DNA from: Promicromonospora sp. AC04
GTDB lineage: Bacteria > Actinomycetota > Actinomycetes > Actinomycetales > Cellulomonadaceae
NCBI RefSeq assembly: GCF_003058225.1
Contig: NZ_QBUG01000017.1
Location: 1 to 64,000, forward strand
Length of the DNA: 64,000 nucleotides
Direction: 5' to 3'
In this document: positions 2,534 to 59,997 of the stretch, in pieces
Layout: every line of letters starts with the position of its first letter
Numbering within the stretch: position 1 is the first letter of the stretch
Made by a program: the position numbers and the translations under genes
Notes under the pieces: model-generated
Seen by the model: only the letters and a program-made list of their open reading frames with translations
Databases searched by the model: none
What the model was told of the DNA's origin: nothing

Positions 2534-3415
2534 TCAGTCGTGCGGCCCCGGCGCGGGAGCTTGCAGAGCGGCGCGTGGTTCGATGCGGAGCGCCTGCCCA
2601 GCAGCGAGTTGGAGAGCTAAATCGTCAGCCTGAAGGTGCCCGAGCGAAGTGATGCCGAACCCCGCACCAGTGAGTGCGGAGATTGCCCTCCTAGCCACCG
2701 TGTGGCGTTCGGCCTCCTCAGCGGCGGCTGCGGAGCCGAGGGAGAGCCACACACGTCCGTCGAACCCTACGGAGACTTGGACCGGCCCTGCAGGTGTGCA
2801 AGAGACTTCGGCGTCGGTGAGGACCTGTGCGGCGGCATCACGATGGTCGGCGGTGTCCTTCGTGTCGATAGCGCGCGCGGCCATGTAGATCGAATTGGCC
2901 AGCTCAGCAGCAGCCTCCCCAGCGGCGGTGACGTTGACTTGGTAGGGCCCCATGGAGACAGCGTCGGTGGTGACGTCGTAACGGAAACCCCAGAAGACGC
3001 GAGCCACATCGCGCCGTTCGTCACCAGCCTCGACCTGCTGGCTCTGCGGACCGTAGCCCAGGCCACGCGACCAGCTCTCGAAGTGGACCAGCCCGTTTCG
3101 GATTCGCGCGATGTTCGGCAGAGCCAGTTCGAATCGCTTGCGTGCCTGTCCCAGCGCCCGTCCGACCTCCGGGTGCATGCCGAGATCAGCCAGCGCCTCC
3201 TGCTCCAACGTCTCCGCCGTCAGCAACTGCGCCAGCGCGAGACACAAATGCCTCGCGTCGATCTGCCGGGAGTCGAACCCGCTGACTACTTCACCGCCAG
3301 CATGGATGCGCCCAACGCACAGCTCGACATCACGCAGTGCCCACTGAGCCTCCGATACGGCGATCGCGTAGGGGTTGTCTGCCGGTGACCAGCCGTCGAC
3401 TGCGGTCTCGTCCAT
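2534..3415 (-). CDS. predicted HEPN-domain protein
   Basis: 293 residues from the ATG complement at 3413-3415, preceded by a GACGAGGA-type ribosome site. The open frame extends upstream to 3706, but that part is arginine-rich and is antisense to a decayed ligase copy, so I reject it. The N-terminal half is helical and carries IRNGLVHFESW. R106, N107 and H111 form the R-N-x-x-x-H motif of HEPN ribonuclease or nucleotidyl-binding domains. The C-terminal half has beta strands of unknown type. HEPN proteins commonly act as RNases in defence or toxin systems. The assignment rests on this motif and the helical context only. Confidence 0.5.
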   Translation of the reverse strand: MDETAVDGWSPADNPYAIAVSEAQWALRDVELCVGRIHAGGEVVSGFDSRQIDARHLCLALAQLLTAETLEQEALADLGMHPEVGRALGQARKRFELALPNIARIRNGLVHFESWSRGLGYGPQSQQVEAGDERRDVARVFWGFRYDVTTDAVSMGPYQVNVTAAGEAAAELANSIYMAARAIDTKDTADHRDAAAQVLTDAEVSCTPAGPVQVSVGFDGRVWLSLGSAAAAEEAERHTVARRAISALTGAGFGITSLGHLQADDLALQLAAGQALRIEPRAALQAPAPGPHD

Positions 3416-3518
3416 GATTACTATCCTCGTCCCCAAGACACCACCACGCTGGGCATTTCTACAGAGTTCGGCAGCCCCCTGAGCTGGCCTGCGGTCGGTA
3501 CTGTCTCCCACGCTCATA

Positions 3519-3830
3519 GCGCTGTGTCGCGGTCGATGTCGTCTGCGTCGCGGTAATTGGCACCCCGTCGGCCCTTGAGCAGGTGGTGATGGGCCTTTCG
3601 ATCCAGGGGCTGCGCGTCCCCGGGGGCGTGGCCTGTTGTCCCTGGCAGCTCGCCGATCTCTGGCTTCGTGGCTTGTCCCGCACGCGCGGAGCGTGCATGG
3701 CTGCAACGGCTGCCTGCGTCAATGCTGGGATGGTTCAGTTCCTCGCGGGGTGACGTCGACCTGATGCTGGTCGAGCCGTTCGTCGTCGAGGTGAGCGTCG
3801 ACAACGGGTGGATGGCACCGCGTCCCGGCG
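3519..3830 (+). pseudogene. DNA-ligase 3' fragment, copy 2 (frameshifted)
   Basis: Bases from 3532 encode VDVVCVAVIGTPSALEQVVMG, matching VDVICGAVIGTRSGPQEVIAG of the fragment at the left edge. Further on, in a different frame, 3755-3800 encodes VDLMLVEPFVVEVSVDNGW, matching VELTLVEPIVVEVRADVGW. The two parts are out of frame, so this is a dead, shorter copy. It lies just upstream of the second copy of the short repeat at 3875-3916. Confidence 0.6.
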
Positions 3831-4611
3831 TCTCGCGCGGCATAGGAAAATCGACGGTTCCGAATAACGGACGGTGCCAGGTGTCCGTCCTGACACCGAG
3901 GTCAGCAGTGTCAAGCCGCCAGGCCGCTGGGCGCGGTGAGTTCAGCCGACGAAACCTGACGCCGCCGCACCGCGCATGCTCCGGGCCCACACCCCTGAAG
4001 ATGCGTCTGCAGTGATAGACGCTCCGGGCATCATCGAGAAGTGATCGTGGCGCGGCGGCCTCATGCCGCACCACGACCACGTCGTCCGGACATCGGACGT
4101 GTTGCCGGCGGCGTTCGGCATCGACGAGGACGTTGACACGCTTGCGTTCGGCGCGGGGCCAGGTCTCCTTGGTGACGAGGGTCCTGACGAGGACGATGTC
4201 GGCGGCGCCGAGGCAAGCCGGGACGCGCTGGGCCAGCCGAACGTGACACAAACGTGCCGCGTTGAGCGGCGCGAACCCGCTAAGGGCCGCGGCGGGCTGG
4301 CACCCGAGCGACGCGCCGGACGTGCGCGTGGCGGTGCGGAACTGCTCGGCCAGGAGCGATCCCTGGGTTCGAGCATGGCGTGTCGCCGACCCGTTGCCGG
4401 TCCTGCCCACAGCCGAGGCGTGGCCGCCGCACTAACAAAGCACTCCTGCTCACGACACGTCCAGCCGATGCTTCACCGTGAGCAGGTCACGGAAGCATCG
4501 CCGCTGACCTCTCGCGGGGCCCCTCACTAGGCATGACCTCACCACTGTGACTTATCGGACCATTGCCAGGTTCCGGACGCTCTGTCGTGACAGGTCAACC
4601 ACGATGACGCC
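3831..4611. other. decayed non-coding stretch
   Basis: Long open frames exist on both strands, but all are arginine/serine/proline-rich and none is a recognisable protein. On the minus strand there are scraps such as RKRVNVLVDAERRR that could be a dead gene broken by frameshifts. The only structure I can support is the short repeat copy at 3875-3916. Confidence 0.4.
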
Positions 4612-5124
4612 TCACCAAGGCTGTGGACCGTCGCCGTAGGGGTCGCTCTTCAGCTCGTGCAGCAGCCCATCTGTGGTGCGCCGCCACCAGGTACCTGCAG
4701 CGTCGCGGAACGTGAACTCCAACTGGACATCAGCGTCGGAGTCGAAACCAACGTCACGGGCCGGACCGACCTCGCGCGGCTTGTCGGTCGGCGTCAGTAG
4801 TCCCCAGGGCGCCAGCCGCCCTGGCCAGGCGCCCTTCGGCATGACGGTGACGAGGCTATACACCGGTGCGGTCGAAGCGTTGTGGAGCCGGTATCCGGCG
4901 AGCAGTCGTGTGTTGACGTCGTCGAAGTGGACCTCCAGCCAGGCGTTGACCAGCGCTGCCTGAGAAATGCGTCGTTCGGCTCGTTGCTCAGCCCGATCAC
5001 GGCGGCCGCGCCAGAACTCCACGCCGCCGAACGTCAGTGCCACGACTACCGCGGCTGCCGTGGCCAGTGCGGTGAGCCACTCGACCAGCGTGGCAGGGTC
5101 ATCGGCCATCATGGGTAGAAGCAC
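4612..5124 (-). CDS. one-helix membrane-anchored protein of unknown function
   Basis: 170 residues from a GTG at 5124 or about 166 from the ATG at 5112. Residues 14-37 are one hydrophobic helix (LTALATAAAVVVALTFGGVEF) followed by a basic stop and a charged helix. After that comes a small beta-rich domain with NASTAPVYSLVTVMPKG and a DVQLEFTFRDAAGTWWRR strand pair. The layout is like 563-1192 and 24821-25360. The gene is divergent from the HEPN-like gene that starts at 5259, so the two may share a control region. Function unknown. Confidence 0.6.
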   Translation of the reverse strand: MLLPMMADDPATLVEWLTALATAAAVVVALTFGGVEFWRGRRDRAEQRAERRISQAALVNAWLEVHFDDVNTRLLAGYRLHNASTAPVYSLVTVMPKGAWPGRLAPWGLLTPTDKPREVGPARDVGFDSDADVQLEFTFRDAAGTWWRRTTDGLLHELKSDPYGDGPQPW

Positions 5125-5258
5125 GCGTGCATCGTAGACACGTCACGACGGCGGTCCTGCTTAGAGGACTACCCCGAGCAAGTTTGCAGTTGGTGCGCGA
5201 CGGCTCTGCAAGCCCGAGCGTGGTTGAGCACTGGCACGTTCGGGCGCAGAATTCGTTG

Positions 5259-6602
5259 ATGTCGACAAGCGAGCCGGACGACGAGCACGGCAGCGAGCCA
5301 CTGACGCCGATCTACCCCTTCAACGCGCCGGGAGAGGCGATCTACCTCTACTCGGGACCTATCGGTGGACTGAACGGCAGTGGTCTGAAAGGGACGATTC
5401 GCCTGGTCCCATTCCCGTCACCGGAACTTCGCTGGCAAGTGCGTGCCCCGGAAACAGCGGGCCGCCACCCGAGGATTGGTCATGTGGGCGACCGGTTCGA
5501 ACTGACCGCTGGCCGGATGACGGGGCACAGCACGGTCAGCAGTGCATCGTTCGACTCGGTCACCGGTAGTTCCTCGCACCTTGAGTTCGAGTCCGGCGAC
5601 CTGCTGGAAAATGCCCTCGTGCACTGGATGAATCTGCCGAACTATCTCGGCAACGAGACGCTGCAATACACCAATAGTGACGGCAGTACGTGGTCACGCA
5701 GCCGCCTGGCCCTCGAAATCGACGGTTGGAGCATCACGCTCGATGGGCGACCGGATGGCGAATCCCTCTTCAAGGAAGATGTGGGATTGGCGCGTTACGT
5801 GCTCACCCACGTCATGGACCTTCGTCGCGCGGACGGCAGCTCGTTCGAGCTCGAAAGCGCGCGGCGGGTGATCGAGGCGCTGCGCCTGTCGCTGTCGTTC
5901 GCGGCCGGGCGCTGGGTCGCACCGACGCTCTCCGATGGGTTCGATACGACTGGCGGGAAGGCATGGCGCTCGTGGTCGAGTCCGATCTGCGCACCATACG
6001 AGCGGATCGGTTCACCGGTCATCAGCCCGATTGTCTTCGGCGATTTGGAGGCGTTTCTCGAGGTCAGTGTTCGGAAGCTCCTCGACGCTGATGCTGCCAA
6101 CACGACCCGTTTTCAGATGCAGTTCGCTACTCAGACGTCCAACCTGGGCTTTGTCGAGAACCGGATCTTCTCTGCGTTTCCCGCGATCGAGAACCTTAGC
6201 TGGGAGACGTTCGTGCTCGGCGGAGTGGTCTCAAAGGCTGAGTTCGAGAAAACGAAGGTGTGGCCGACCGCGCGTCGTCTTCGAGAGCTCCTCGTCCGCG
6301 CGCATATTCCGATCGGCGTGGACGAAAATCGACTACCCGTCTTGCATCAGCTCGCGGCAGATAAGGGAGTTGACGGCCCTGGGGCGGTTACGTGGGTGAG
6401 GAACCAGTTGATCCACCCAAAGGATCTGCAAGCCCGTTTGTACACACGGGAGTCCCTGGTTGTGGAGGCGTGGCAGCAAAGCCGTGAGTACGTCTGCATG
6501 TTGCTGCTGCACGCCCTTGGCTACACCGGTGGCTACCTGAGCACCATCCCCCCGCACGGATGGCTAGGAGATTCTGCACCGGTGCCCTGGGCGGCGCAGT
6601 AG
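5259..6602 (+). CDS. ApeA-like predicted HEPN protein
   Basis: 447 residues from the ATG at 5259 (the frame is open to 5127, but that part lacks a start context and protein-like composition). The N-terminal 250 residues are beta-rich, starting with YPFNAPGEAIYLYSGPIGG. The C-terminal region is helical and carries TWVRNQLIHPKD, with R381 and H386 forming an RN-x3-H HEPN motif, followed by an amphipathic helix and HALGY. The architecture (large N-terminal beta domain plus C-terminal HEPN) is that of ApeA-type anti-phage proteins, which are predicted abortive-infection RNases. The HEPN call rests on the motif; the ApeA relation is inference. Confidence 0.5.
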   Translation: MSTSEPDDEHGSEPLTPIYPFNAPGEAIYLYSGPIGGLNGSGLKGTIRLVPFPSPELRWQVRAPETAGRHPRIGHVGDRFELTAGRMTGHSTVSSASFDSVTGSSSHLEFESGDLLENALVHWMNLPNYLGNETLQYTNSDGSTWSRSRLALEIDGWSITLDGRPDGESLFKEDVGLARYVLTHVMDLRRADGSSFELESARRVIEALRLSLSFAAGRWVAPTLSDGFDTTGGKAWRSWSSPICAPYERIGSPVISPIVFGDLEAFLEVSVRKLLDADAANTTRFQMQFATQTSNLGFVENRIFSAFPAIENLSWETFVLGGVVSKAEFEKTKVWPTARRLRELLVRAHIPIGVDENRLPVLHQLAADKGVDGPGAVTWVRNQLIHPKDLQARLYTRESLVVEAWQQSREYVCMLLLHALGYTGGYLSTIPPHGWLGDSAPVPWAAQ

Positions 6603-6748
6603 GCCGTGCAGTGCGCCTGCATGCAGACGTGGCTCTGATCCGGGCTTGCGACCGACGTTGAGAGGGTGAACCGACTGGTCAGCAGTATCTGCCCGTCGAG
6701 GCGGCGCTCATAGTAGGTGTCAGTAGTTCTCTGCTGGGGGAGGTCGAC

Positions 6749-7741
6749 ATGACGGTGGTCACCGCTCCACCAGCGGGTCTGGTTCCCTGTGCGGTCAGCG
6801 ACGACGTGGACCGGTTACGAGCAGCGCTGGCCGCGCAGGTTCCGGCGAAGGCGAGCAAGAACCTGCTGATCGGGACGTGGAACCTGCGTGCGTTCGGCGA
6901 TCTCACCCACAAGTGGCAGTCGACCCAGGACGACAGTCCCAAGCGCGACTGGCACGCCCTGGCGTGCATCGCCGAGGTGGTTCAGCGGTTCGACGTGACC
7001 GCGGTCCAGGAGACCCGGCGCAACACCACCGCCCTGTTCGCCCTGCTGCACCTGCTCGGCCCGCGCTACAAGGTCATCGCCTCCGACGTCACCGAGGGCG
7101 GCCCTGGCAACGGCGAGCGCCTGGCCTACGTGTATGACGCCGAACGCGCCCAGCCTTCCGGCCTGGTGGGGGAGCTGGTGCTTCCCGCGGCGGCGAGCAG
7201 CGACGTCGACCAGTTCGCCCGCACGCCCTACGCGGCCGGGTTCGTGCGCGAGGCGACCGAGTTCATCCTGACGACCGTGCACGTGCTGTGGGGCAAGAAG
7301 CCCGAGGACCGGATCGGCGAGCTGACTGCCTTCGCCGCATGGATGCGGGGATGGGCCGACCGGCCCGACGACTGGAACCAGAACCTGCTGGTGCTGGGCG
7401 ACTTCAACCTCGACCGGATGGACGACCCCCTCTTCAAGGCGTTCCTGTCCACGGGGCTGTGGCCGCCTGCCGAGCTCAACGACGTCCCGCGCACGATCTT
7501 CGACGACGACAAGGACAATCATCAGTACGACCAGATCGCGTGGTTCAGTGATCCTGCACAGCCGGACGCACCTTCGCTCCTGGAGGGGCTGACCTATACC
7601 GGGACACTGCACCGGTTCGTTCGCTCAAACCTGTGGATGCTGTGCTCGAAGCCAGGGCCACGGTGGCGAACAACCGAGAGGCGGCCGTTGAACTCGCCGA
7701 AGGCATACTCCACCAGTTCGAATACGGACTCCTCAACGTGA
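6749..7741 (+). pseudogene. endonuclease/exonuclease/phosphatase family protein, 3' end broken
   Basis: The first 280 residues are a metal-dependent EEP-fold nuclease or phosphatase: GTWNLRAFG (metal-binding Asn), AVQETRRN (catalytic Glu) and LVLGDFNLDR (catalytic Asp/Asn). The family normally ends with an SDH motif (SDHyPLW). Here the protein loses similarity after LTYTG near 7600 and runs out in serine/arginine-rich sequence. In the next frame, 7625-7764 reads as a good helical tail ending ...LLNVIASADDA and a stop, which looks like the end of a different protein. So the gene seems to have been truncated by recombination near 7600. The start ATG at 6749 has GGGGGAGG upstream. Confidence 0.6.
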
Positions 7742-49132: not shown

Positions 49133-49174
49133 CGGCCGCACGCGTCCAGTGCCGCCTGGACTGATGGCAAACTT

Positions 49175-49190
49175 TACCGTACGTATGGTA
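49175..49190. promoter_or_regulatory. operator and promoter of the TetR-SMR operon
   Basis: TACCGTACGTATGGTA is a near-perfect palindrome centred on TACGTA, directly followed by TATATATATT (a possible -10 element) and then the gene start at 49203. It is the likely self-control site of the TetR gene. Confidence 0.55.
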
Positions 49191-49202
49191 TATATATTGC
49201 CC

Positions 49203-49739
49203 ATGAGGCCAAGCTCCCGCACCGAGATCCTTGACGCGGCCATGCGCGTGGTCGACGCCGAGGGCGGCGCAGAAATCACCTACGAGTCCGTCGCCCGAGA
49301 AGCAGGCCTGACCAAGGCCGGGCTGATGTACCACTTCCCGTCCAAGGACGCGCTGATGATCGGCGTCATCGAGCACGTCATCGCCCGCTGGCAGGCCGAG
49401 CTGCGCGAGGCACTCGGCGTCCCGTTCGAGGAGTCGACCCTGGCGCAGCGCGTACGGGCCTTCGTGAGCTTCGCGGGGGAGGGCGGGGTGAAGCAGGGCG
49501 ACTTCGTGATCTTCGCCGAGGCGGTCAGGCGCCCTCAGCTGTCGGCGCCGTGGCTCGCCTACCTGCGCGACTGGTTCGGCTTCGGCGAAGACGCAGACGT
49601 CGCCCCGCTCCTGCTGGCGTGGCTGACCGCGAACGGCCTGTGGATCGCGGAGTCGACGAACATCCTGACCGTGACACCGGCACAACGCGCGGCCGTCCTC
49701 GGCCGGCTGACCGACCTGATCGAGGAGATGGCGGCGTGA
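49203..49739 (+). CDS. TetR-family regulator of an SMR efflux pair
   Basis: 178 residues from the ATG at 49203; the longer frame to 49149 would start inside the operator and promoter. The HTH is ITYESVAREAGLTKAGLMYHFPSKDALMIGV, the common TetR form. The C-terminal domain is helical with AEAVRRPQLSAPWLAYLRDWFGFG. The stop overlaps the first SMR gene (GTGA), so regulator and pump form one operon, probably repressed until a cationic compound binds. Confidence 0.75.
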   Translation: MRPSSRTEILDAAMRVVDAEGGAEITYESVAREAGLTKAGLMYHFPSKDALMIGVIEHVIARWQAELREALGVPFEESTLAQRVRAFVSFAGEGGVKQGDFVIFAEAVRRPQLSAPWLAYLRDWFGFGEDADVAPLLLAWLTANGLWIAESTNILTVTPAQRAAVLGRLTDLIEEMAA

Positions 49740-50134
49740 AGAAGTGGCTCATCCTGTCTGCGGCGATCGTGCTGGAGGTCGCCGCCACACTCTCCCTGCG
49801 TGGCGCGATCGACAACCCGTGGTGGTCGATCCTGACGGTCATCGGTTATGCCGGGGCCTTCGTCGCGTTGTCGCTGTTGCTCCGGCTCGGCGCCCCCATC
49901 GGCGTCGTCTACGGCATCTGGGCGGCCACCGGAGTGGCCCTCACCGCGGTCATCGCCTCCGTCCTGTTCGGGGAGCCGTTCACGCTCACCATCGGTATCG
50001 GGATCGCCCTGGTGATCGCGGGCGTCGTGCTCGTCGAGACGGGGCACGGCACGGCCGCCGTCGAACCCGCTGCCGGATCCACCGAACCCACCGAACGGGC
50101 CGAGGCGCCCGAAGCAGCGAAGGAGATCCGATGA
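49736..50134 (+). CDS. SMR multidrug efflux subunit (first of a pair)
   Basis: 132 residues from the GTG at 49736. It has four transmembrane helices with the conserved Glu in IVLEVAATLSLRG (Glu14 of EmrE), GAPIGVVYGIWAATGVALTA and a second-half ASVLFGEPFT. A 25-residue acidic, Ala/Pro-rich tail (TAAVEPAAGSTEPTERAEA) extends beyond the usual 105-residue family length. It overlaps the next SMR gene by four bases. Paired SMR proteins form heterodimers with opposite membrane orientation. Confidence 0.85.
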   Translation: MKKWLILSAAIVLEVAATLSLRGAIDNPWWSILTVIGYAGAFVALSLLLRLGAPIGVVYGIWAATGVALTAVIASVLFGEPFTLTIGIGIALVIAGVVLVETGHGTAAVEPAAGSTEPTERAEAPEAAKEIR

Positions 50135-50457
50135 CGTGGCTCATCCTGGCCGGGGCCATCCTCACCGAGGTCGCCGCCACACTGTCCCTGCGGGCCTCGG
50201 ACGGCCTACGAAAGAAGCGCTGGATCGCCCCGGTCGCCGTCCTGTACCTCACCGCGTTCTCCCTCCTCACCCTGGCTCTCGCGCACGGGATGCCCGTCGG
50301 TATCGCGTACGGGATCTGGGCTGCCTGCGGCGTGGCTCTCACCGCGGTCGGCGCACGCGTCTTCTTCCAGGAGAAGCTCACCTGGCGCATGACTGCCGGG
50401 ATCGTCCTGATAGCGATCGGGGTCTTCGTCATCGAGCTCGGCGCCCCCGCCCACTGA
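50131..50457 (+). CDS. SMR multidrug efflux subunit (second of a pair)
   Basis: 108 residues from the ATG at 50131 (ATGA overlap). It has the normal SMR length, with Glu in GAILTEVAATLSLRASDG, YGIWAACGVALTAVGARVFFQEKLTW and a fourth helix IVLIAIGVFVIELG. The charges on the loops differ from those of the first subunit, as expected for a dual-topology pair. Substrate unknown; probably quaternary cations or similar. Confidence 0.85.
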   Translation: MTWLILAGAILTEVAATLSLRASDGLRKKRWIAPVAVLYLTAFSLLTLALAHGMPVGIAYGIWAACGVALTAVGARVFFQEKLTWRMTAGIVLIAIGVFVIELGAPAH

Positions 50458-51935: not shown

Positions 51936-52607
51936 TCAGGATCGGGCGGGACCGGCGAACCCTGTCTCGGCGGTGCTCGCGCGGACAGCGTCCGCGAGCC
52001 GGTGGATGACCTCGGCCGCGGTGAACTGCTGGTGGTCACGGAGCGCTGCGATGCTGATGTCCTCGTTGACGACGCGGACAGCGGCGGTCGCCGCGGCGGC
52101 GCACACCCGGACCTGCGGGTTGGTGGTCGTCAGGTCGAGCCGTCGCGCGACGACGGTGACGAGCTGCCGCTCGGCCTCGTCGCAGACCATGAGCCAGGCC
52201 GAGCGGATCGCGGGCTCGGTGGCCGCGAGCGCGATCATGCGCAGGGCGCTGAGGTCGTCCTCGATCTGCTCCGGGGACGACGGGTCGTCGGAGAGCTCGG
52301 CGAGAAGGAACTCCTCCAGTGAGCTGCCGAGCGGCCAGCGGTCCAGAGCGGCCATGAACCGATAGACGGAGGCGGCGAGGAGCGGTTCGACGCAGCTCTC
52401 CTTGGACCGGAAGTACCGCCACACGCTGCGGGGCGAGACGCCGGCTGCCTCGGCGATGTCGTCCCCGCTGGTCGCGGCGACACCGCGCTCCCAGAACAGC
52501 GCGGCAGCATGCCGGGAGACCGCCATCCGCGCGCGTGCGAGCCGCGGGGACAGGGGAGCGGTGGGCGGGCCGTCGCTGCTCATGTCGGGTGTCGTCCTCT
52601 CCGTCAC
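51936..52607 (-). CDS. TetR-family regulator
   Basis: 223 residues from a GTG at 52607 that overlaps the stop of an upstream 47-residue gene (GTGA). The HTH is AATSGDDIAEAAGVSPRSVWRYFRSKESCVEPLL. The C-terminal domain has DRWPLGSSLEEFLLAEL and RMIALAATEPAIRSAWLMVCDEAERQLVTVVARR, as in the MftR/TetR-C group. A perfect 15-base inverted repeat lies upstream of the small gene, so the regulator probably controls its own operon. Ligand unknown. Confidence 0.75.
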   Translation of the reverse strand: MTERTTPDMSSDGPPTAPLSPRLARARMAVSRHAAALFWERGVAATSGDDIAEAAGVSPRSVWRYFRSKESCVEPLLAASVYRFMAALDRWPLGSSLEEFLLAELSDDPSSPEQIEDDLSALRMIALAATEPAIRSAWLMVCDEAERQLVTVVARRLDLTTTNPQVRVCAAAATAAVRVVNEDISIAALRDHQQFTAAEVIHRLADAVRASTAETGFAGPARS

Positions 52608-52808: not shown

Positions 52809-52844
52809 TGGCAGTTAGTGCCAGTAGGGTGGCACTAACTGCCA
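52809..52844. promoter_or_regulatory. large perfect inverted-repeat operator
   Basis: TGGCAGTTAGTGCCA (52809-52823) and TGGCACTAACTGCCA (52830-52844) are exact reverse complements separated by GTAGGG. Each arm is itself bounded by TGGCA and TGCCA, giving up to four half-sites. It lies about 62 bases upstream of the 47-residue gene and is the likely site of the TetR encoded in the same operon. Confidence 0.75.
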
Positions 52845-52911: not shown

Positions 52912-54354
52912 TCACGGGGATTCCGTTGTACGGCGCGAGAGCTCCCAGAGTCGGTGCAGGAGTGCTTCGTCGAGCTGCGGGGCGGCGGGTTGGTCGCCGT
53001 CGTACGAACCCGCCGGCCCGTGGACTTCGGCGTGGAGCTGTTCCATGCGGTGGTCGAGCTGTTCGGCGGCGGCCGCTGCTTCGGTCAGGTCGGTCGCGAG
53101 ATGGCCGGGGACGGCGCCGTTGTACTTGTAGAAGATCTTGTGTTCGAGGCTGGCCCAGAAGTCCATCGCGACGGTGCGGATCTGGACTTCGACGGTCACG
53201 GGGACGGCGCCCGTGGACAGGAAGACGGGGATCTCGATGATCGCGTGCAGGCTCTTGTACCCGTTGGACTTGGGGTGAGCTATGTAGTCCTTGAGATCCA
53301 CGACGCGGACATCGTCCTGCGAGGTGAGGGCTTCGAGGATCCGGTAGGTGTCGGCGATGAAGCTGCAGGTGATGCGGACCCCGGCGATGTCGGTGATGTT
53401 CTCTCGGATGGAGGGCAGCGTGGGCGCGCACTGCTTGCGGGACACCTTCTCCAGGATGCTGTCGGGGGTCTTGATGCGCGAGGCGACGTGTTCGATGGGG
53501 TTGTAGCGGTGCAGGTGCCGGAACTCTTCGCGCAGGATGGTGACCTTGGTGAGGACTTCGTCGACGGCGAACTGGTACTCCATCATGAAGCGGGCGAAGT
53601 CCTCGCGCATCTGGCGTGCATAGACGAGCATGTCCGGATCGGGCAGTACCGGGGTTGGCGCGGCGTGCGCGGTCGCAGGCCGCACGGTTCCGGCCGGTGC
53701 CGGCTCCTCGGACGTGACGGGGGCCCGCCAGACGGCGACAACGGTGTCGATGATCTCGCTGGCGACGTCGTCCCATGACCCCGTCGCCATGGCGGGGTTC
53801 TCGGCCAGTGCACGTTCCCGGTCGACGGTGGTCTGGTTGATCAGGTGCCGGGTCATGGCGCCGCGTGCGTCCCGGACGTCGTCGGGCAGTGGAGGCAGAC
53901 AGCGGCTCATGCCCTCTCGTAGAGCTCGCAGCGTGGGGGCGGTGGTCAGGACGTCGTCCTCGTCGAGATCGTGCAGGGCCGGGTCGGCGGCGACCTGGGC
54001 CAGGAATCGCGCGTACCAGGACGGGCTCCCGAGGTTCGCCAGGTGCTCGGTGACCGACCGCACCGCGACCTGGACCCATTCACGCAAGTCGCCAGGGTTC
54101 GACACGGCGACGATCCGCCGGGAGCGGATCTGCTCGATCGCAACCGAATGCTTGTGCAAGATCGCGCGGACGAGGTCGGTCTTGGTGCCGAAGTGATAGC
54201 TGACAGCGGTGTTGTTGCGCTGCCCTGCGGCCTCGCTGATCTGCCGGTTCGACACCGCGTGCACGCCGCGCTCGGCGAACAGCCGCTCGGCCGTCGCCAC
54301 GAGCGCGTCGCGCGTGGCAGCGACCTGCTCCTCCCGTCGTCGCGTGGTGGCCAT
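52912..54354 (-). CDS. TetR regulator fused to small alarmone (ppGpp) synthetase
   Basis: 480 residues from the ATG at 54354, with GAGGTG six bases upstream (GTG or TTG starts up to 54405 are in frame). Counted from 54405, residues 28-74 are a TetR HTH (AVSNRQISEAAGQRNNTAVSYHFGTKTDL), followed by a helical TetR C-domain to about 228. A Pro/Ala linker (230-257) precedes a complete RelQ/YjbM-type synthetase at 260-470: RIKTPDSILEK (GTP/ATP site), DIAGVRI, DYIAHPKSNGYKSLH and VEVQIRTVAMDFWASLEH with the catalytic Glu. No hydrolase (HD) domain. The single open frame shows no frameshift. It would make (p)ppGpp and regulate transcription. It is divergent from an FAD monooxygenase gene. Confidence 0.85.
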   Translation of the reverse strand: MATTRRREEQVAATRDALVATAERLFAERGVHAVSNRQISEAAGQRNNTAVSYHFGTKTDLVRAILHKHSVAIEQIRSRRIVAVSNPGDLREWVQVAVRSVTEHLANLGSPSWYARFLAQVAADPALHDLDEDDVLTTAPTLRALREGMSRCLPPLPDDVRDARGAMTRHLINQTTVDRERALAENPAMATGSWDDVASEIIDTVVAVWRAPVTSEEPAPAGTVRPATAHAAPTPVLPDPDMLVYARQMREDFARFMMEYQFAVDEVLTKVTILREEFRHLHRYNPIEHVASRIKTPDSILEKVSRKQCAPTLPSIRENITDIAGVRITCSFIADTYRILEALTSQDDVRVVDLKDYIAHPKSNGYKSLHAIIEIPVFLSTGAVPVTVEVQIRTVAMDFWASLEHKIFYKYNGAVPGHLATDLTEAAAAAEQLDHRMEQLHAEVHGPAGSYDGDQPAAPQLDEALLHRLWELSRRTTESP

Positions 54355-54390
54355 TTCGGTCACCTCGCTCACCTCCTGGTCTCGACCGTC

Positions 54391-54428
54391 AGTCACGTGA
54401 CCCAAGACTACGCCAGTGAGTCACCTGA
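54391..54428. promoter_or_regulatory. repeated AGTCAC(G/C)TGA boxes between divergent genes
   Basis: AGTCACGTGA at 54391-54400 and AGTCACCTGA at 54419-54428, centred 28 bases apart, with GTCACGTGAC a perfect 10-base palindrome (54392-54401). They lie between the TetR-synthetase gene and the FAD monooxygenase and are candidate binding sites for the TetR domain. Confidence 0.5.
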
Positions 54429-54502
54429 TTGACGAGTGCGAAACGGCGGGCTAAATTATTTCAGGCAGCCGACTTACATTCGGCCATGTCGAGAGGAACC
54501 AC

Positions 54503-55789
54503 ATGTCACTCGCACCCAAGACCACCCGTCGCGTGCTCGTCGTCGGGCTCGGGATCGCTGGGATGTCCACCGCCATCCGGCTGCGGCAGTCCGGCTGGGA
54601 ACCCGTCATCGTGGAGCGCGCCCCGGCACGGCGTCCCGGCGGGCACTTCATCGCCCTGTTCGGCACCGGTCGTGCCGCCGCCCAGCGACTCGGGGTGCTA
54701 GACCTCATCGAGAACCGCACCAACACGGACTCGCACAGCTGGGAGGTCGACCGCAAGGGACACAAGCGCCCCGGCCTCGGCTCAGGATCGATCCCGGGCG
54801 CGGCTCCCTGGATCCTGCTGCGCGGCGATGTCGAGGACGGGCTCTACCAGGGTGTGCCCGAGGACCTGGAGATCCGGTACTCGACCCAGCCCGTCGCCTT
54901 GGACCAGGACACCGACGGTGTCGACGTCACCCTGCGCGACACCGCAGCCGACCACGAGTACACCGAGCGGTTCGACCTGGTGGTCGGCGCCGACGGCGTA
55001 CGGTCGGCCGTCCGCCGCCTCGCGTTCGGCCCCGACGCGAACTTCGTGCACCCGCTCGGCTACATGATCGCCACGGCCCTGCTCGACTCCCAGATCACCG
55101 GCATCGGCGAAAAGGACAGCCTGGTCCTGGCCGAGCCGGGGCGATCCCTGTGGACCTTTTCGTTCAAGAACCACGAACCGAGCCTGATGTTCTCGTACCG
55201 CACCACCGACCCCGCCGCCGAGCTCGCCCGGGGACCTGTCGAGTCCGTCCGGGCCGCATTCGGTCAGCCCGACCCGGGGCCCTTCCTCGGCGAAGCCCTC
55301 GAACGGTTCGCGGCGACCGATCACACGGTCTTCGACTCCGCACAGCAGGTCCGGATGCGGCAGTTCCACAACGGTCGGGTCGTCCTGGTGGGCGATTCCG
55401 CCTGGTGCATGACCCTCTACTCCGGGTACGGGGCCTCCTGCGGCCTGGCCGGCGGCGAGCTGCTCGGCACCTACCTGGACAAGTACCCCGACGACGTGCC
55501 CGCCGCGCTCGTCGCCTGGAACGAGCACATGCACCCGCACGTGTCCTACCAGCACCAGCTCGTCGGCAGGTCCCGCACGCTGTTCACCCCGCACGACCGG
55601 CGCGAGCAGGTCATGCGGACGGCGCTCATCCGTACCCTCAACATGCCCGGTGTCAGTGGCCTGGCGCGTCGGCGCATGCAGCACCACCCGACCCTGAGCA
55701 TCAAGGACCGCGACATCGCGATCCTGCCCGACCTCAGCAGCACGCGGGACCCTTCGGCCGGCCCAGATCGCGCACTGGTCGGCGCCTGA
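54503..55789 (+). CDS. FAD-dependent monooxygenase
   Basis: 428 residues. The N-terminal Rossmann motif is VLVVGLGIAGMSTAIRLRQSGWEPVIVERAP. The DG motif is VVGADGVRSAVRRLAFG, and the second FAD motif is GRVVLVGDSAWCMTLYSGYGASCGLAGGELLG. These mark a group A flavin monooxygenase (PHBH/TetX/Rox type) that hydroxylates a small aromatic or polyketide-like compound with NAD(P)H. It has AGAGGAAC upstream of the ATG at 54503. The gene is divergent from the TetR-alarmone synthetase gene, which may control it. Substrate unknown; TetX- or Rox-like drug modification is one possibility. Confidence 0.8.
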   Translation: MSLAPKTTRRVLVVGLGIAGMSTAIRLRQSGWEPVIVERAPARRPGGHFIALFGTGRAAAQRLGVLDLIENRTNTDSHSWEVDRKGHKRPGLGSGSIPGAAPWILLRGDVEDGLYQGVPEDLEIRYSTQPVALDQDTDGVDVTLRDTAADHEYTERFDLVVGADGVRSAVRRLAFGPDANFVHPLGYMIATALLDSQITGIGEKDSLVLAEPGRSLWTFSFKNHEPSLMFSYRTTDPAAELARGPVESVRAAFGQPDPGPFLGEALERFAATDHTVFDSAQQVRMRQFHNGRVVLVGDSAWCMTLYSGYGASCGLAGGELLGTYLDKYPDDVPAALVAWNEHMHPHVSYQHQLVGRSRTLFTPHDRREQVMRTALIRTLNMPGVSGLARRRMQHHPTLSIKDRDIAILPDLSSTRDPSAGPDRALVGA

Positions 55790-55850: not shown

Positions 55851-56570
55851 CTATGACAGGTGTGGCAGGCTCGGCGTCGCCGGGCCGTAGACCGCCGCCG
55901 GGGCGCCCGTCACGAGCGCCCAGTAGCGGTCCCCGTAGGACCAGTGCCACCACTCGGTGGGGTAGTTGACCAGGTCGGCCGAGCCGAGGGCGCGGGCGAG
56001 GATGCCGCGCAGCGCGCGTGCCCGTTCCGGGATGTCCGGCGCGTCGAAGTAGCAGCGGCCGCCGGACATCTCCGGCGTCGCGTCGATGGCGGTGCCCATG
56101 TCGAGCGGGCCGTCGAAGTCGGCCAGCGTGAGGTCGACCGCGGCGCCCGCCACGTGCGGTGCGACGGCGATCGGGGCGACGAAGCGGCTTGTCAGGACCT
56201 CGAGCTCGTACGGGTCGAGGCCGGGACGTTCGGCGGACACCTCGGCGGCGTACCTGTCGATGATGCTCTGCTGGTCGGCCGGGTGCCGGTGGCCCTCGAC
56301 CACCTCCAGCCGCAGTCCCTCCGGCAGCAGGTTCTGGGCCCTGCGCAGCCGCTGCGCGACCCCCGCACGGACCAGCGAACGCGCCGGACCGAACGTCTCG
56401 TCGAGCTCCACCAGCGGTTCACCGCAGTCCACCACCGGGATCTCCCCGACCCGGGGATCGGCCAGGAGGACGATCTCACCGTCGTCGTGGCCCGGACGAG
56501 GGATCGTCGCGACACGCGGCGCCCCGGAGCTCTGTTCCGACGGCGGGACGGTGTGCTGGCCGTGCGTCAT
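55851..56570 (-). CDS. D-alanyl-D-alanine dipeptidase, VanX-like (M15)
   Basis: 239 residues from the ATG at 56570, with AGGAGA just upstream. The zinc ligands are H139 in APHVAGAAVDLTL with D146 (H-x6-D), and H209 in PTEWWHWSYGD with catalytic E206 (E-x-x-H). A conserved EGHRHPADQQ precedes them. This is the VanX/DdpX pattern. It hydrolyses D-Ala-D-Ala (VanX) or removes a C-terminal D-Ala (VanY-like). No signal peptide is seen, so it should act in the cytoplasm, as VanX does. It is the last gene of the minus-strand operon, 86 bases after capA. Confidence 0.75.
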   Translation of the reverse strand: MTHGQHTVPPSEQSSGAPRVATIPRPGHDDGEIVLLADPRVGEIPVVDCGEPLVELDETFGPARSLVRAGVAQRLRRAQNLLPEGLRLEVVEGHRHPADQQSIIDRYAAEVSAERPGLDPYELEVLTSRFVAPIAVAPHVAGAAVDLTLADFDGPLDMGTAIDATPEMSGGRCYFDAPDIPERARALRGILARALGSADLVNYPTEWWHWSYGDRYWALVTGAPAAVYGPATPSLPHLS

Positions 56571-56656
56571 GGGTCTCCTGACAGCGATCGGTTCGGGTTG
56601 GGCGGGCGGGTGGACAGACCGGCGGCGCCGGACGCGCCGTCGTCCTGGGGTGCTTG

Positions 56657-57751
56657 CTACTCGTCGTTCAGGACCGGACCAAGGTGAGCGCACTCGCGGA
56701 GGCCGTCGAAGTTGTGCCGGGCCAGGTCTGCCTGCCACCCGGTGAGCACCTCCGGCTGGCCCGTGCTGGTCATCACCGTCGGGACGAACTCCGACTGGAC
56801 CACCTCGCGGCCGCGGACCGTGAGGCGGAGGACGCCGGCCCGGGCGCTGTACGGCTCGTGGAGGCCCTCGCTGTACCAGAGGAAGTTCCCCAGGCCGTAC
56901 GCGACGTAGGCGCCGTCCATGGTGCCCGCGCCCTGCAGGACGTGGGCGTGCGCGCCCACGATGACGTCCGCTCCGGCGGAGATCAGGCCGGCGGCGAAGT
57001 CGAGCTGGCGGCCGGTCGGGCACTGGTCGCCCTCCGCCCCCCAGTGGGGGAGGACCACGACGAGGTCGCTGTCGGCCCGGGCGGCACGCACCGCCGCGTA
57101 CGCACGCTCGGTGTCGAAGGCCATGGCCATACCGGACCGGTCCGGCGTGGCAGCCCACTCCTCGGCCAGGTCGTCGACCTGGCTGAACGCGAAGATGGCG
57201 ACGTCGACGCCCTGGACGGTGCGGTGCAGCGGGGTGAACGCCTCGTCGATGTCGTCGCCGGCGCCGACCGTGTCGAGCCCGCCGCTCGCCGTCTTCTCCA
57301 GGGTGTCGGCCAGCCCCACCCGGCCGTAGTCCATGGTGTGGTTGTTCGCCAGGCTGACCACGTCGATGCCGGCCTCCGTCATGGCGGGCACCGCCGCGTC
57401 CGGCGCGCGGAAGACGTAGTTCTTGACCTCCGCCGTGCCGCGCGAGGTGATCGGCGTCTCGAGGTTGACCAGCGTGAGGTCGCCGTCGGCGAGCTGGTCG
57501 GTGACCGGGCCGAACGTGCTGGCCGGATCGTCCAGCAGCTCGGCCACCCGGTCCTCGAAGTGCACGTCACCGGCGAACGTCAGGGTGATCTCGGGCGGGG
57601 CGGAGTCGGTCGCCTCGGTGCTGCTCGCCGACGGCGTGGCGCAGCCCGCAGTGGCCAGGAGCGCGGCCGCCGCGACGAGCGCGGTCGCCGCCCGCCGGGC
57701 GCGGGGCGCCCGGAAGGCTGCAGCGCCCGGGGCGGTCTGTCGTCGGCTCAT
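56657..57751 (-). CDS. CapA-family lipoprotein (PGA synthesis-like)
   Basis: 364 residues from the ATG at 57751, overlapping the acyltransferase stop (ATGA). Its signal peptide has the lipobox LLATAGC. It shows the CapA/PGA_cap metallophosphatase-like motifs: TLTFAGDVHFEDRV, LVNLETPIT, SLANNHTMDYG, VVVLPHWGAEGDQ and VIVGAHAHVLQG. The first metal site (D-x-H), the NNH and the H-x-H motif are all present. Family members act on poly-gamma-glutamate or cell-wall components; the substrate here is unknown. It sits in the same operon as a racemase and a VanX-like dipeptidase. Confidence 0.8.
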   Translation of the reverse strand: MSRRQTAPGAAAFRAPRARRAATALVAAAALLATAGCATPSASSTEATDSAPPEITLTFAGDVHFEDRVAELLDDPASTFGPVTDQLADGDLTLVNLETPITSRGTAEVKNYVFRAPDAAVPAMTEAGIDVVSLANNHTMDYGRVGLADTLEKTASGGLDTVGAGDDIDEAFTPLHRTVQGVDVAIFAFSQVDDLAEEWAATPDRSGMAMAFDTERAYAAVRAARADSDLVVVLPHWGAEGDQCPTGRQLDFAAGLISAGADVIVGAHAHVLQGAGTMDGAYVAYGLGNFLWYSEGLHEPYSARAGVLRLTVRGREVVQSEFVPTVMTSTGQPEVLTGWQADLARHNFDGLRECAHLGPVLNDE

Positions 57752-58788
57752 CGGTCCACCTCGGCGAGTACGGGAGATCGGTCCAGGTCGGGGCCCTTCC
57801 GGGCCGCGTGGCGGCGTCGGGTGCCGGGGAAGGCTCGCTGCACCAGGACCGTGGCTACAACACCGCAGCCGACGACGACCGCCACGATCACCAGCGGCTC
57901 GACCAGCGCGGCCGGGTACTGCACGGTGGGCCCCATATGCCCGAGCCGCGCCAGCAGGACCCTGTCGAAGAGCGCGACGACCGGGATCTGCAGGAGGTAG
58001 ATCGCGACGGCGGCCGTGCCCACCTGGGTGAGCCCGCGGGAGGGCCGCCGGCCGGCTCCGAGCCGTGCCGATCCGAGTCGTGCCAACAGGGTCAGGGCGA
58101 ACGGCAGCACCGCGAGCCCCGCGACCACGGTGCCGAGCCCGTCGGGGAAGCGCGGGACGCCCAGCACCGACGCACCCACCAGGGCGACGGCGCCCTGCGG
58201 CAGCAGGCTGCGCCAGGTGGTGGTCTCCGCCAGGCGGCCGATCTCCGGACCCAGCCGCATGCCGACCAGGAGGAAGACCAGGAACGTCGGCGCGGTCGTC
58301 AGCAGGGTCAGCCCGGCCAGGGCGACGATGACGACGCCGGTCGGGAGCCGGCGGGCCAGCTTCGCCACCACGGGGGCGAGCGCGAGCGACCAGAGCAGCG
58401 AGAGCTCGGGCGGGGGCAGCACCACGAGGGGCAGGATCTCGGCGACGTCCCGCGCCGGGATCCCGGTGAACCCGGGGTTGAACCGGCGGAGCCCGACGAG
58501 CGTCAGGCCCAGCCACACCACGTGCGCCGCGAGCAGGGGGAGGACCCACTCGGTCAGCAGCCGCCACCAGGACCGGCCGATCAGATGTCCGGCCTGCCGC
58601 TCGACCCCGCGTCCCAGGGCGGTGAGCAGCAGCGGCATCCCGACCACACCGAGGATCGCGCCGAGCACCCACCACAGGACCGGCAGGGGCGCCTGGACAG
58701 TCCACTCCACCTGCAGGTAGTGGCGCTCGACCACGTACGCGGTGACGGCTGCGACCACGCCCACGGCCGCGGCGTCGGGCTGCCTCAT
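57748..58788 (-). CDS. membrane acyltransferase-like protein (VanT N-domain-like)
   Basis: 346 residues from the ATG at 58788, overlapping the racemase stop by four bases (ATGA). About nine transmembrane helices are visible. LLWSLALAPVVAKLARRLPTGVVIVALAGLTLL and TAAVAIYLLQIPVVALFDRVLL resemble acyltransferase-3 proteins. The N-terminal membrane half of VanT (serine racemase of VanC-type resistance) belongs to this superfamily and precedes a racemase domain in one protein. Here it is a separate gene tightly coupled to a racemase, which suggests a split VanT. The relation is structural inference. A paralogue is encoded at 61318. Confidence 0.6.
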   Translation of the reverse strand: MRQPDAAAVGVVAAVTAYVVERHYLQVEWTVQAPLPVLWWVLGAILGVVGMPLLLTALGRGVERQAGHLIGRSWWRLLTEWVLPLLAAHVVWLGLTLVGLRRFNPGFTGIPARDVAEILPLVVLPPPELSLLWSLALAPVVAKLARRLPTGVVIVALAGLTLLTTAPTFLVFLLVGMRLGPEIGRLAETTTWRSLLPQGAVALVGASVLGVPRFPDGLGTVVAGLAVLPFALTLLARLGSARLGAGRRPSRGLTQVGTAAVAIYLLQIPVVALFDRVLLARLGHMGPTVQYPAALVEPLVIVAVVVGCGVVATVLVQRAFPGTRRRHAARKGPDLDRSPVLAEVDR

Positions 58789-59924
58789 CGGACGGGCTCG
58801 TAGCGGCGCTGCACCCTGGTCCCGATCCCGGTCAGGATGTGGTTCGGGTTGGTCTTCGCCCACCGGGCCCAGTCGTGCGCCGTCGGCTCGCCGTCCGTTC
58901 CCGGACCGAACATGACGGCGACGTCGCCTGGGCGCACGGGAAGGTCGCCGACGTCGAGCACCACCTGGTCCATGGCGACCCGGCCCGCTACCGGGCAGCG
59001 CACGCCATGGACCTGGAAGGCCGCCTCGCCGCTCGCCTGCCGCGGCAGGCCGTCGGCGAAGCCGAGCGGGACCAGCGCGAGGGTGGTCTCGCGGTCGGTG
59101 ACGTAGTCGTGGCCGTAGTTGACGCCCGTGCCTGCCGGGACGCGCTTGGTGAGGAGCACCTGGGCCTGCACGGTCATCGCCGGGCGCAGGTCGTGGCTCG
59201 CCCCCGGCACCGGCTCGATCCCGTACAGGCCGATGCCCACGCGCAGCAGGTCGAAGCGGGTGCGCGGCAGCCCGAGCGCCGCGGCCGAGTTGGCGAGGTG
59301 GACGATCTCCGGGTCGAGCCCGGCGTCGGCTGCCTGGCGGAGGCCCTCGTCGAAGGCGGTGAGCTGGTCCTGCAGCCCCTGGTCGCTCGGCTCCTCGGCG
59401 GTCGCCAGGTGGGACCAGAGGCCGCGCACGCGCAGCGCGCCCGCTCGGTGCAGCATGCTCGCGCGCTCGAAGAGCTGCGCCCACTCCGCGGCCGGTGCGC
59501 CCCCGCGCGACATGCCCGTGTCGAGCTTCAGGTGCACGTTCGCCACCACGAGCATGCTCCGCGCGGCCTCGGCGACGGCGTCCAGCGCTTCGACCGTGCC
59601 CACCGACACGTCGATCCCTTCGAGCAGCACCTTCTCGAAGGTCTCCGTCGGCGGGTAGAGCCAGATCAGGATCGGTGCGGTGATGCCGTCGGCCCGCAGG
59701 GCGAGCGCCTCGGGCGGGCTGGACACGCCCAGCCAGGTGGCACCGCCGGCCAGGGCGGCCCGGGCGGCCTGGGTCGCGCCGTGGCCGAAACCGTTGGCCT
59801 TCACCACCGCCATGACTCCGGTGCCCGCGCGGTCGGCGAAGACACGGGCGTTGTGGGCGATGGCGTCCAGATCGACGACCGCCTCCGCCATGGTGGCCAT
59901 CGGGCGGGACGTGGAAACAGGCAC
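58785..59924 (-). CDS. alanine racemase family (alanine or serine racemase)
   Basis: About 379 residues from the GTG at 59924, with AGGA ten bases upstream; other in-frame starts lie at 59954 (GTG) and 59900 (ATG). PLP enzyme with Lys42 in VVKANGFGHG (family consensus VVKADAYGHG), DTGMSRGG, HLANSAAAL, LYGIEP and the second catalytic Tyr in GVNYGHDYVT. Downstream genes are a VanT-like membrane protein, CapA and a VanX-like dipeptidase. It is divergent from a D-Ala-D-X ligase. It supplies D-Ala, or D-Ser if it is a VanT-like serine racemase; the sequence alone does not decide this. Confidence 0.8.
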   Translation of the reverse strand: MPVSTSRPMATMAEAVVDLDAIAHNARVFADRAGTGVMAVVKANGFGHGATQAARAALAGGATWLGVSSPPEALALRADGITAPILIWLYPPTETFEKVLLEGIDVSVGTVEALDAVAEAARSMLVVANVHLKLDTGMSRGGAPAAEWAQLFERASMLHRAGALRVRGLWSHLATAEEPSDQGLQDQLTAFDEGLRQAADAGLDPEIVHLANSAAALGLPRTRFDLLRVGIGLYGIEPVPGASHDLRPAMTVQAQVLLTKRVPAGTGVNYGHDYVTDRETTLALVPLGFADGLPRQASGEAAFQVHGVRCPVAGRVAMDQVVLDVGDLPVRPGDVAVMFGPGTDGEPTAHDWARWAKTNPNHILTGIGTRVQRRYEPVR

Positions 59925-59997
59925 GGACGAACAATTCCTGAGGCGCCTGCTCACTCTCCAGGCCGTTCGGTGCTCATGTCGCTCGCCGGGAGCTCTT

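Follow-up and report, generated by a model that had tools for sequence, protein, structure and literature searches.

A TetR-type regulator fused to a small alarmone synthetase: a rare protein that may connect a chemical signal with the control of growth

In the 64-kb stretch of DNA analysed here (the window), a TetR-type DNA-binding domain is fused to a small alarmone synthetase (SAS) with a complete active site. The fusion recurs in four further genomes with both domains conserved, a dyad recurs upstream, and a FAD monooxygenase gene is linked to it in two genera. As judged from these relatives, the fusion is genuine, is made of two conserved halves, and is rare and patchily distributed.

The earlier note had described a TetR factor and a complete SAS in one frame, and this description holds: the minus-strand frame from 54354 to 52912 is open over 480 codons and contains every motif named there. 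The protein has 480 amino acids if translation begins at ATG 54354 and 483 if it begins at GTG 54363, with the stop at 52912 in either case; GTG appears to be the likelier start, with AGGAGG (54377-54372) 8 nt ahead of it. Matches to both Pfam domains lie above their cut-offs, TetR_N at residues 18-65 with 37.1 bits (cut-off 24) and RelA_SpoT at residues 292-413 with 118.3 bits (cut-off 27). No other Pfam family matches the window protein at E <= 1, and by this search no HD hydrolase, RNase HII / DUF429, delivery or antitoxin domain was found in it. The genome that carries it (G000; 6.85 Mb, 99.67% complete) holds three RelA_SpoT genes: one in a frame of 784 aa, the fusion, and another short gene whose frame has 274 aa. 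The features of the gene are as follows.

52912..54363, minus strand: TetR-SAS fusion gene (open frame; AGGAGG before the start; same domain order in L004, L185, L186 and L187)
53716..54363, minus strand: TetR domain, residues 1-213 in the 480-aa numbering (TetR_N, 37.1 bits; alignments of stand-alone TetR proteins)
54160..54303, minus strand: helix-turn-helix, Pfam TetR_N, residues 18-65 (Pfam)
53641..53715, minus strand: variable Pro/Ala linker, about residues 214-238 (alignment of five fusions; pLDDT <50 at 209-227)
52915..53640, minus strand: RelP/YwaC-like alarmone synthetase domain, residues 239-480 (Pfam, active-site residues, Foldseek)
53481-53116, minus strand: Pfam RelA_SpoT match within the synthetase domain (profile search)

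Two outcomes had been named that would count against the fusion: a frameshift or assembly error at the linker, and the lack of any homologue with both domains. The linker is unbroken, and the independent genome of Glycomyces paridis (L004) encodes a fusion of identical domain order, with 468 aa and 70% identity to the window fusion over residues 4-476, as do three more genomes. Because homologues with both domains exist, in five genomes in total, the second objection falls away, and so does the idea that the fusion is unique to the window, which is overturned by the fusions in other genera. The four further examples comprise one from Glycomyces (L004), one from Brevibacterium (L185; genome G795, taken as Brevibacterium) and two from Kineosporia (L186 and L187; genomes G868 and G904, taken as Kineosporia, with proteins K868 and K904).

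The fusion is scarce wherever it was sought. A contig scan found both domains spanned in G. paridis only among the best 80 of 559 loci. On the window's side, the fusion is present in 1 of 221 genomes of the GTDB family (G000), 1 of 394 of the class (G000; E <= 1e-85) and 4 of 396 of the order (G000, G795, G868 and G904; E <= 1e-95). On the side of G. paridis, it is present in 1 of 22 genomes of the genus, 1 of 150 of the family and 1 of 397 of the order (E <= 1e-95). Two of the six genomes in the genus of G868 carry it, as does 1 of 60 in the family of G795 (E <= 1e-90). These samples overlap and are partial, and the four E limits mean that weaker fusions could be missed. Two genes with an in-frame stop, in G037 (residues 150-473) and G576 (residues 157-459), both reach into the TetR region and were left out of the count. 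Viral contigs gave no match to the pattern, and no match among 30 phage records or 88 plasmid records covered 80% of the query. The best TetR-only match from plasmids, at 60% identity, lies on Streptomyces plasmids. This closest stand-alone TetR protein (L123, plasmid NZ_CP109105.1, 5938-6900) has an unusually long tail and adjoins what by eye is a transposase-like frame; the plasmid record has no synthetase match.

Adjacent TetR and synthetase genes were also considered as a parent operon and rejected. The TetR-like gene upstream of the synthetase in L077 is 34.6% identical to the fused TetR over only 52 aa, and the weaker TetR-like gene in L005 has no significant match to it, so a parent operon is not shown by them. 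The L077 gene (4273-4965, plus strand; Robertmurraya), although unrelated to the fused TetR, lies directly 5' of a stand-alone synthetase and is perhaps a second, unfused pairing.

The earlier note had assigned the N-terminal half a full TetR helix-turn-helix and C-domain. The helix-turn-helix passes the TetR_N model, but the window protein's C-domain stays below the cut-off of every Pfam TetR_C model, even though stand-alone TetR proteins align over about residues 7-213 of the fusion with 45-60% identity. The G. paridis fusion barely passes TetR_C_30, with 26.4 bits against 26.3. Two C-domain motifs, PSWYxRFxAQ and RxAM, are conserved in all five fusions, including the two with an altered helix-turn-helix. 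These two are from Kineosporia: by alignment K868 has a shortened helix-turn-helix and K904 one with an insert, and the TetR_N scores are 22.5 bits, below the cut-off, and 25.6 bits over 30 of 47 positions, a partial match. AlphaFold2 run on A1 (46 rows) gave a pTM of 0.54, with the synthetase mostly >90, the TetR C-domain at about 40-65 and the linker <50. A TetR-only AlphaFold model reached a pLDDT of 43.7, and no claim made here rests on a TetR model.

The synthetase half had been typed as RelQ/YjbM, and this assignment is reversed by PDB scores, an NCBIfam cut-off and the G-loop proline. Naming differs between sources, since RelP denotes YjbM in Atkinson 2011 (PMC3153485) and YwaC in PMC5794853; the latter usage is adopted here. 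By sequence, the domain ranks closest to Bacillus subtilis YwaC (6fgk, 203.4 bits), followed by Staphylococcus aureus RelP (172.9 bits) and B. subtilis YjbM (143.3 bits), and it reaches only 186.9 bits against the cut-off of 320 for the NCBIfam YjbM equivalog model. With the predicted structure as query, the top Foldseek match is the RelP chain 6ewz (E 1e-19), with the first RelQ chain at rank 10; with the whole model, the best 50 of 472 matches are all synthetases. All ten SaRelP residues that contact ATP, Mg or guanosine (R78, K80, S84, K88, R91, D107, R112, Y151, E174 and H190; PMC5794853) are kept in the fusion. Residue P361 is the counterpart of SaRelP P146, the G-loop proline that distinguishes RelP from RelQ, and it is present in 44 of 44 synthetase rows of A1. 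On these comparisons the synthetase is RelP/YwaC-like and not RelQ/YjbM-like. RelP/YwaC-type enzymes were taken to be single-domain proteins of ~25-29 kDa that form homotetramers and yield (p)ppGpp or pGpp; the window protein departs from the single-domain description by the TetR domain in front.

According to PMC5794853, the G-loop proline frees RelP from pppGpp dependence, and S. aureus RelP does not require activation by pppGpp. The RelP-type G-loop of the fusion thus suggests an enzyme that is always on. Published assays record an inactive RelP from Corynebacterium glutamicum (PMC5566576) and an inactive BsRelP (PMC5794853).

The fusion gene is separated from a divergent monooxygenase gene by a short region with candidate operators and promoters:

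54389..54401, minus strand: candidate operator copy B, GTCACGTGACTGA, which departs from the dyad only at its first base (pattern scan)
54405..54410, minus strand: possible -10 element (TAGTCT) of the fusion gene, with copy B starting 3 nt downstream (by eye, not called by the promoter scan)
54419..54430, plus strand: candidate operator copy A, AGTCACCTGATT (dyad ARTCANNTGAYT), the sole exact match in the 64-kb window, also found 5' of the G. paridis and Brevibacterium fusions
54429..54457, plus strand: promoter-like site TTGACG-17-TAAATT for the FAD monooxygenase, overlapping copy A by 2 nt (promoter scan, which called 2 sites in a 2-kb region against 0.2 expected)
54503..55789, plus strand: divergent FAD-dependent monooxygenase, 428 aa, probable co-regulated partner (Pfam FAD_binding_3, 61.5 bits; Brevibacterium counterpart)

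The two candidate operator copies thus fall almost where a binding site had been proposed earlier (54391-54428). A 13-mer, GTCACRTGAYTGA, was derived from the window and the G. paridis locus. At no more than one mismatch it has two matches in the window, both in the 139-nt intergenic region (0.37 expected; 4 of 100 shuffles reach 2), and one match in the G. paridis locus, 68-80 nt 5' of the fusion start (0.03 expected). Exact matches occur in 6 of 181 loci, every one a copy of the window or G. paridis site, and in the comparison of these two intergenic regions alone the match is reached by 3 of 300 shuffles. In a forward test, a looser form, GTCACNTGANTGA, at no more than one mismatch has one match in 12 kb of L185, 5' of the Brevibacterium fusion, and none in the two Kineosporia loci.

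The dyad ARTCANNTGAYT was refined after sight of all three sequences, from the window, G. paridis and Brevibacterium. The 64-kb window has a single copy, against 0.06 expected and with at least one copy in 6 of 100 shuffles, and the dyad is present in 10 of 206 loci, eight of which are copies of the three fusion loci and two of which, L073 and L141, are unrelated. The core CANNTGAYT has two sites 5' of the window fusion, two 5' of the G. paridis fusion and three 5' of the Brevibacterium fusion, with none within 151 nt of the Kineosporia starts. The dyad is present at all three fusions with an intact helix-turn-helix and absent from both Kineosporia fusions with an altered one. A perfect palindrome, GTCGGTGAA-N8-TTCACCGAC, lies 5' of the G. 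paridis fusion and is not found in the window. On the other side of the fusion gene, positions 52809-52844 hold a perfect 15-nt inverted repeat with a 6-nt spacer (TGGCAGTTAGTGCCA / TGGCACTAACTGCCA), situated before the next TetR gene (52607..51936, minus strand) and possibly the operator of that gene.

That a drug or xenobiotic might trigger both the fusion and the divergent monooxygenase had been suggested from their layout, and the link between the genes is borne out in part. The Brevibacterium genome encodes a monooxygenase 76-77% identical to that of the window (76% over 412 aligned aa), 3.4 kb from its fusion and within a divergent operon that comprises MFS, SDR, alpha/beta hydrolase and FAD monooxygenase genes (Pfam). 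For comparison, the window genome's own paralogue is 54% identical and proteins in 12 other genomes of the genus are at most 50% identical; at E <= 1e-135, just two of the order's 327 genomes, G000 and G795, have a match. However, no monooxygenase was found beside the G. paridis fusion or the two Kineosporia fusions, so the link holds for two of the five, and none of the 12 other genomes of the genus has the monooxygenase in synteny. No NCBIfam cut-off was passed among 25 of the 68 matches of the window monooxygenase, which scores 112 bits with the tetracycline destructase model (cut-off 550). Stand-alone synthetases of G350 and G374 adjoin monooxygenases that are 37% and 25% identical to that of the window, a post hoc observation that is not counted as support.

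Several neighbourhoods deserve mention in their own right. The 54% paralogue (L172, on contig C14 of G000, 3176-7018) is accompanied by a TetR-like gene and, in divergent orientation, an MFS-like transporter gene, both recognised by eye; the arrangement resembles the Brevibacterium fusion operon. A monooxygenase beside a stand-alone Glycomyces synthetase (L171, 2340-3845, minus strand) resembles rifampin monooxygenases at 453 bits, below the cut-off of 800. Within the window, 49149-50457 (plus strand) holds a TetR gene (Pfam) followed by two small membrane proteins that by eye are like a paired SMR efflux pump, and 55851-59954 (minus strand), downstream of the monooxygenase, holds genes that by eye are D-Ala-D-Ala dipeptidase-like and alanine racemase-like.

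In the tree, a single branch (support 99/96) separates the TetR parts of the five fusions from 15 stand-alone TetR proteins. Both Kineosporia rows are long, with branches of 1.36 and 1.58 against 0.23-0.29, and C-domain identity in comparisons with Kineosporia is 0.44-0.53. The synthetase parts, by contrast, do not form one clade (AU p 1.25e-5, 53 rows): the G. paridis fusion groups with a stand-alone gene of G. niveus (100/99), K904 with stand-alone genes of G845 and G813 (100/99), K868 with those of G924 and G856 (98/91), and the window with these two Glycomyces genes (95/84). Moreover, over their first 80 nt the G. paridis gene and leader are homologous to the corresponding stretch of the stand-alone G. 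niveus gene (L008), with a score of 68 that none of 1000 shuffles reached (maximum 37) and a maximum of 30 in 238 other windows. Similarly, the 5' end of K904 is common to G845 (L188; score 56, shuffle maximum 33) and G813 (L189; 46, shuffle maximum 29). No clear sharing is seen between K904 and G924 (L190; 32, shuffle maximum 34) or G856 (L191; 20, shuffle maximum 30), and the window 5' region has no significant match to L004 or L008, the scores being reached by 63 and 60 of 1000 shuffles.

Because the tree unites the TetR parts in one clade but not the synthetase parts, and because some stand-alone synthetases retain the 5' end of a fusion, the TetR part has probably been lost repeatedly. 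The simplest reading of these trees and 5' ends is one old fusion that moved between genera; exchange of TetR parts by recombination, or insertion rather than deletion, is a less simple account. Where the fusion persists, both domains appear intact and under purifying selection in comparisons of the window, G. paridis and Brevibacterium. Between the window and G. paridis, dN/dS is about 0.47 over the 211 TetR codons, 0.45 over a mere 14 linker codons and 0.17 over the 228 codons of the synthetase; between the window and Brevibacterium the separate dN / dS values are 0.15 / 0.46 for the helix-turn-helix, 0.33 / 0.85 for the C-domain and 0.14 / 0.42 for the synthetase.

We propose that the fusion could well be a self-repressing, always-on alarmone synthetase, which keeps both its own gene and a linked gene for oxidative detoxification repressed until it is released by a ligand; DNA binding, repression, ligand and alarmone output are the steps that we infer. 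The TetR domain would bind as a dimer to ARTCANNTGAYT in the divergent promoter region. The bound protein would repress its own gene together with the linked gene or operon, meaning the FAD monooxygenase in the window and the MFS, SDR, hydrolase and FAD monooxygenase genes in Brevibacterium. A small ligand, probably the monooxygenase substrate or a relative of it, would free the protein from DNA, after which monooxygenase and synthetase would both increase, so that detoxification would go up in step with the alarmone. In B. subtilis, sigma M and sigma W control SasA/YwaC, and wall antibiotics induce it (PMC7492591). With a RelP type that is free of pppGpp activation, and with this precedent of transcriptional control, the enzyme's dose in the present case would be set by its own DNA-binding half. 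Counted against self-repression are the stand-alone sister synthetases that have no TetR part, the fast-evolving Kineosporia TetR, the dyad in L073 and L141, the absence of the monooxygenase at three fusions, the refinement of the dyad after its sequences were seen, and the shuffles that equal the window-G. paridis match (3 of 300) or the two copies in the window (4 of 100).

Ligand or DNA binding by the TetR part might instead alter synthetase activity directly, via the linker or an oligomer, yielding a ligand-gated synthetase that is also a repressor. We consider this unlikely. The retention of PSWYxRFxAQ and RxAM in all five fusions, those with an altered helix-turn-helix included, is consistent with such coupling, as is the mutual dependence of the halves of RelZ (described in PMC7591505). 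The linker, however, is long, variable and of low confidence, the stand-alone copies suggest that the synthetase works alone in sister species, the Kineosporia TetR parts evolve fast throughout, and the RelP-type G-loop points to an always-on enzyme. An equally doubtful extension would see a one-chain, ligand-gated stringent-response switch: on sensing a xenobiotic or metabolite, it would derepress the divergent detoxification promoter and allosterically change the synthetase. Its family would be old, would travel between genera together with the operator and sometimes the monooxygenase, and would decay by TetR loss.

It is also rather improbable that the fusion lacks regulatory meaning, with only the synthetase selected and the TetR part a relic under loss. 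The altered helix-turn-helix and long TetR branches of Kineosporia and the shared 5' ends of the stand-alone sisters in L008, L188 and L189 would agree with a relic, but L190 and L191 lack such a shared end, and an intact TetR part, with dN/dS well below 1 and the dyad alongside, is seen in the window, in G. paridis and in Brevibacterium.

There is a small chance that (p)ppGpp itself is the ligand of the TetR part, so that the alarmone would tune repression. Support comes only from the fusion itself, to which the (p)ppGpp-binding repressor PurR adds a precedent (PMC7492591). The stand-alone TetR relatives, however, adjoin genes that by eye encode P450 enzymes, which suggests a lipophilic or aromatic ligand. 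Smaller still is the prospect of a fused toxin-antitoxin as in CapRel, with TetR restraining a toxic, tRNA- or nucleotide-modifying synthetase. The PADLOC model PDC-S33 does match the synthetase part with 69.8 bits, but in sequence and fold this part is closest to housekeeping RelP/YwaC, the CapRel match has an E of only about 2e-6, and sister genes exist without the TetR part. Finally, an assembly or frame artefact joining two genes, for which no supporting point was found, is effectively ruled out by the recurrence of the fusion across four genera, in five independent genomes.

Returning to the self-repressing synthetase, proteins that combine an enzyme and a repressor in one chain are known, as in PutA, BirA and NadR, each of which represses its own pathway and senses the substrate of that pathway. 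The enzyme of the fusion would instead make a global alarm signal. Another precedent, CapRel, joins an RSH-type synthetase to an antitoxin domain and is a toxin. Tas1 likewise carries an added domain, for delivery (PMC7591505), and differs in being a toxin; the window protein has neither a delivery nor an antitoxin domain by Pfam.

The closest relatives of each half differ from the fusion in domain content. RelP / YwaC (SAS2, SasA) of Firmicutes resembles it in the synthetase domain, with 6fgk and 6ewz as best matches and the ten binding residues and G-loop proline in common, but consists of one domain and has its control in other proteins (sigma M/W for YwaC, PMC7492591), whereas the fusion has TetR in front. 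RelZ / MS_RHII-RSD (actRel) of Mycobacterium smegmatis is likewise an SAS with an extra N-terminal domain (PMC7591505), but that domain is RNase HII (DUF429 in Atkinson 2011, PMC3153485) rather than a DNA-binding TetR. The TetR regulators of L114, L115 and L120 are 45-48% identical over the TetR part and lie divergent from or beside an oxygenase gene, but they have no synthetase and belong to another clade than the five fused TetR parts (split 99/96). The neighbours of these regulators look by eye like cytochrome P450 and ferredoxin reductase, and no close match to GTCACRTGAYTGA lies in the 400 nt either side of the TetR matches. In searches of open-licence PubMed Central articles no TetR-synthetase fusion was found, which is weak evidence of novelty, and 'TetR' is absent as a whole word from PMC3153485. 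By these comparisons, small alarmone synthetases with an extra domain are a known kind, and the N-terminal TetR domain is unexpected.

Most descriptions of small alarmone synthetases are of single-domain enzymes, with regulators from outside setting their supply. If the proposal is true, a synthetase that carries its own repressor would connect a chemical cue directly to (p)ppGpp, and it would make testable how a non-starvation signal becomes an alarmone response. The five fusions, with DNA-binding halves either intact or altered, together with the sister genes that have no TetR part, form a natural test series for this purpose. The relatives in three other genera, the common upstream sites and, in one of these genera, the shared neighbour gene suggest a rare but real switch, by which a chemical cue may be tied to growth control.
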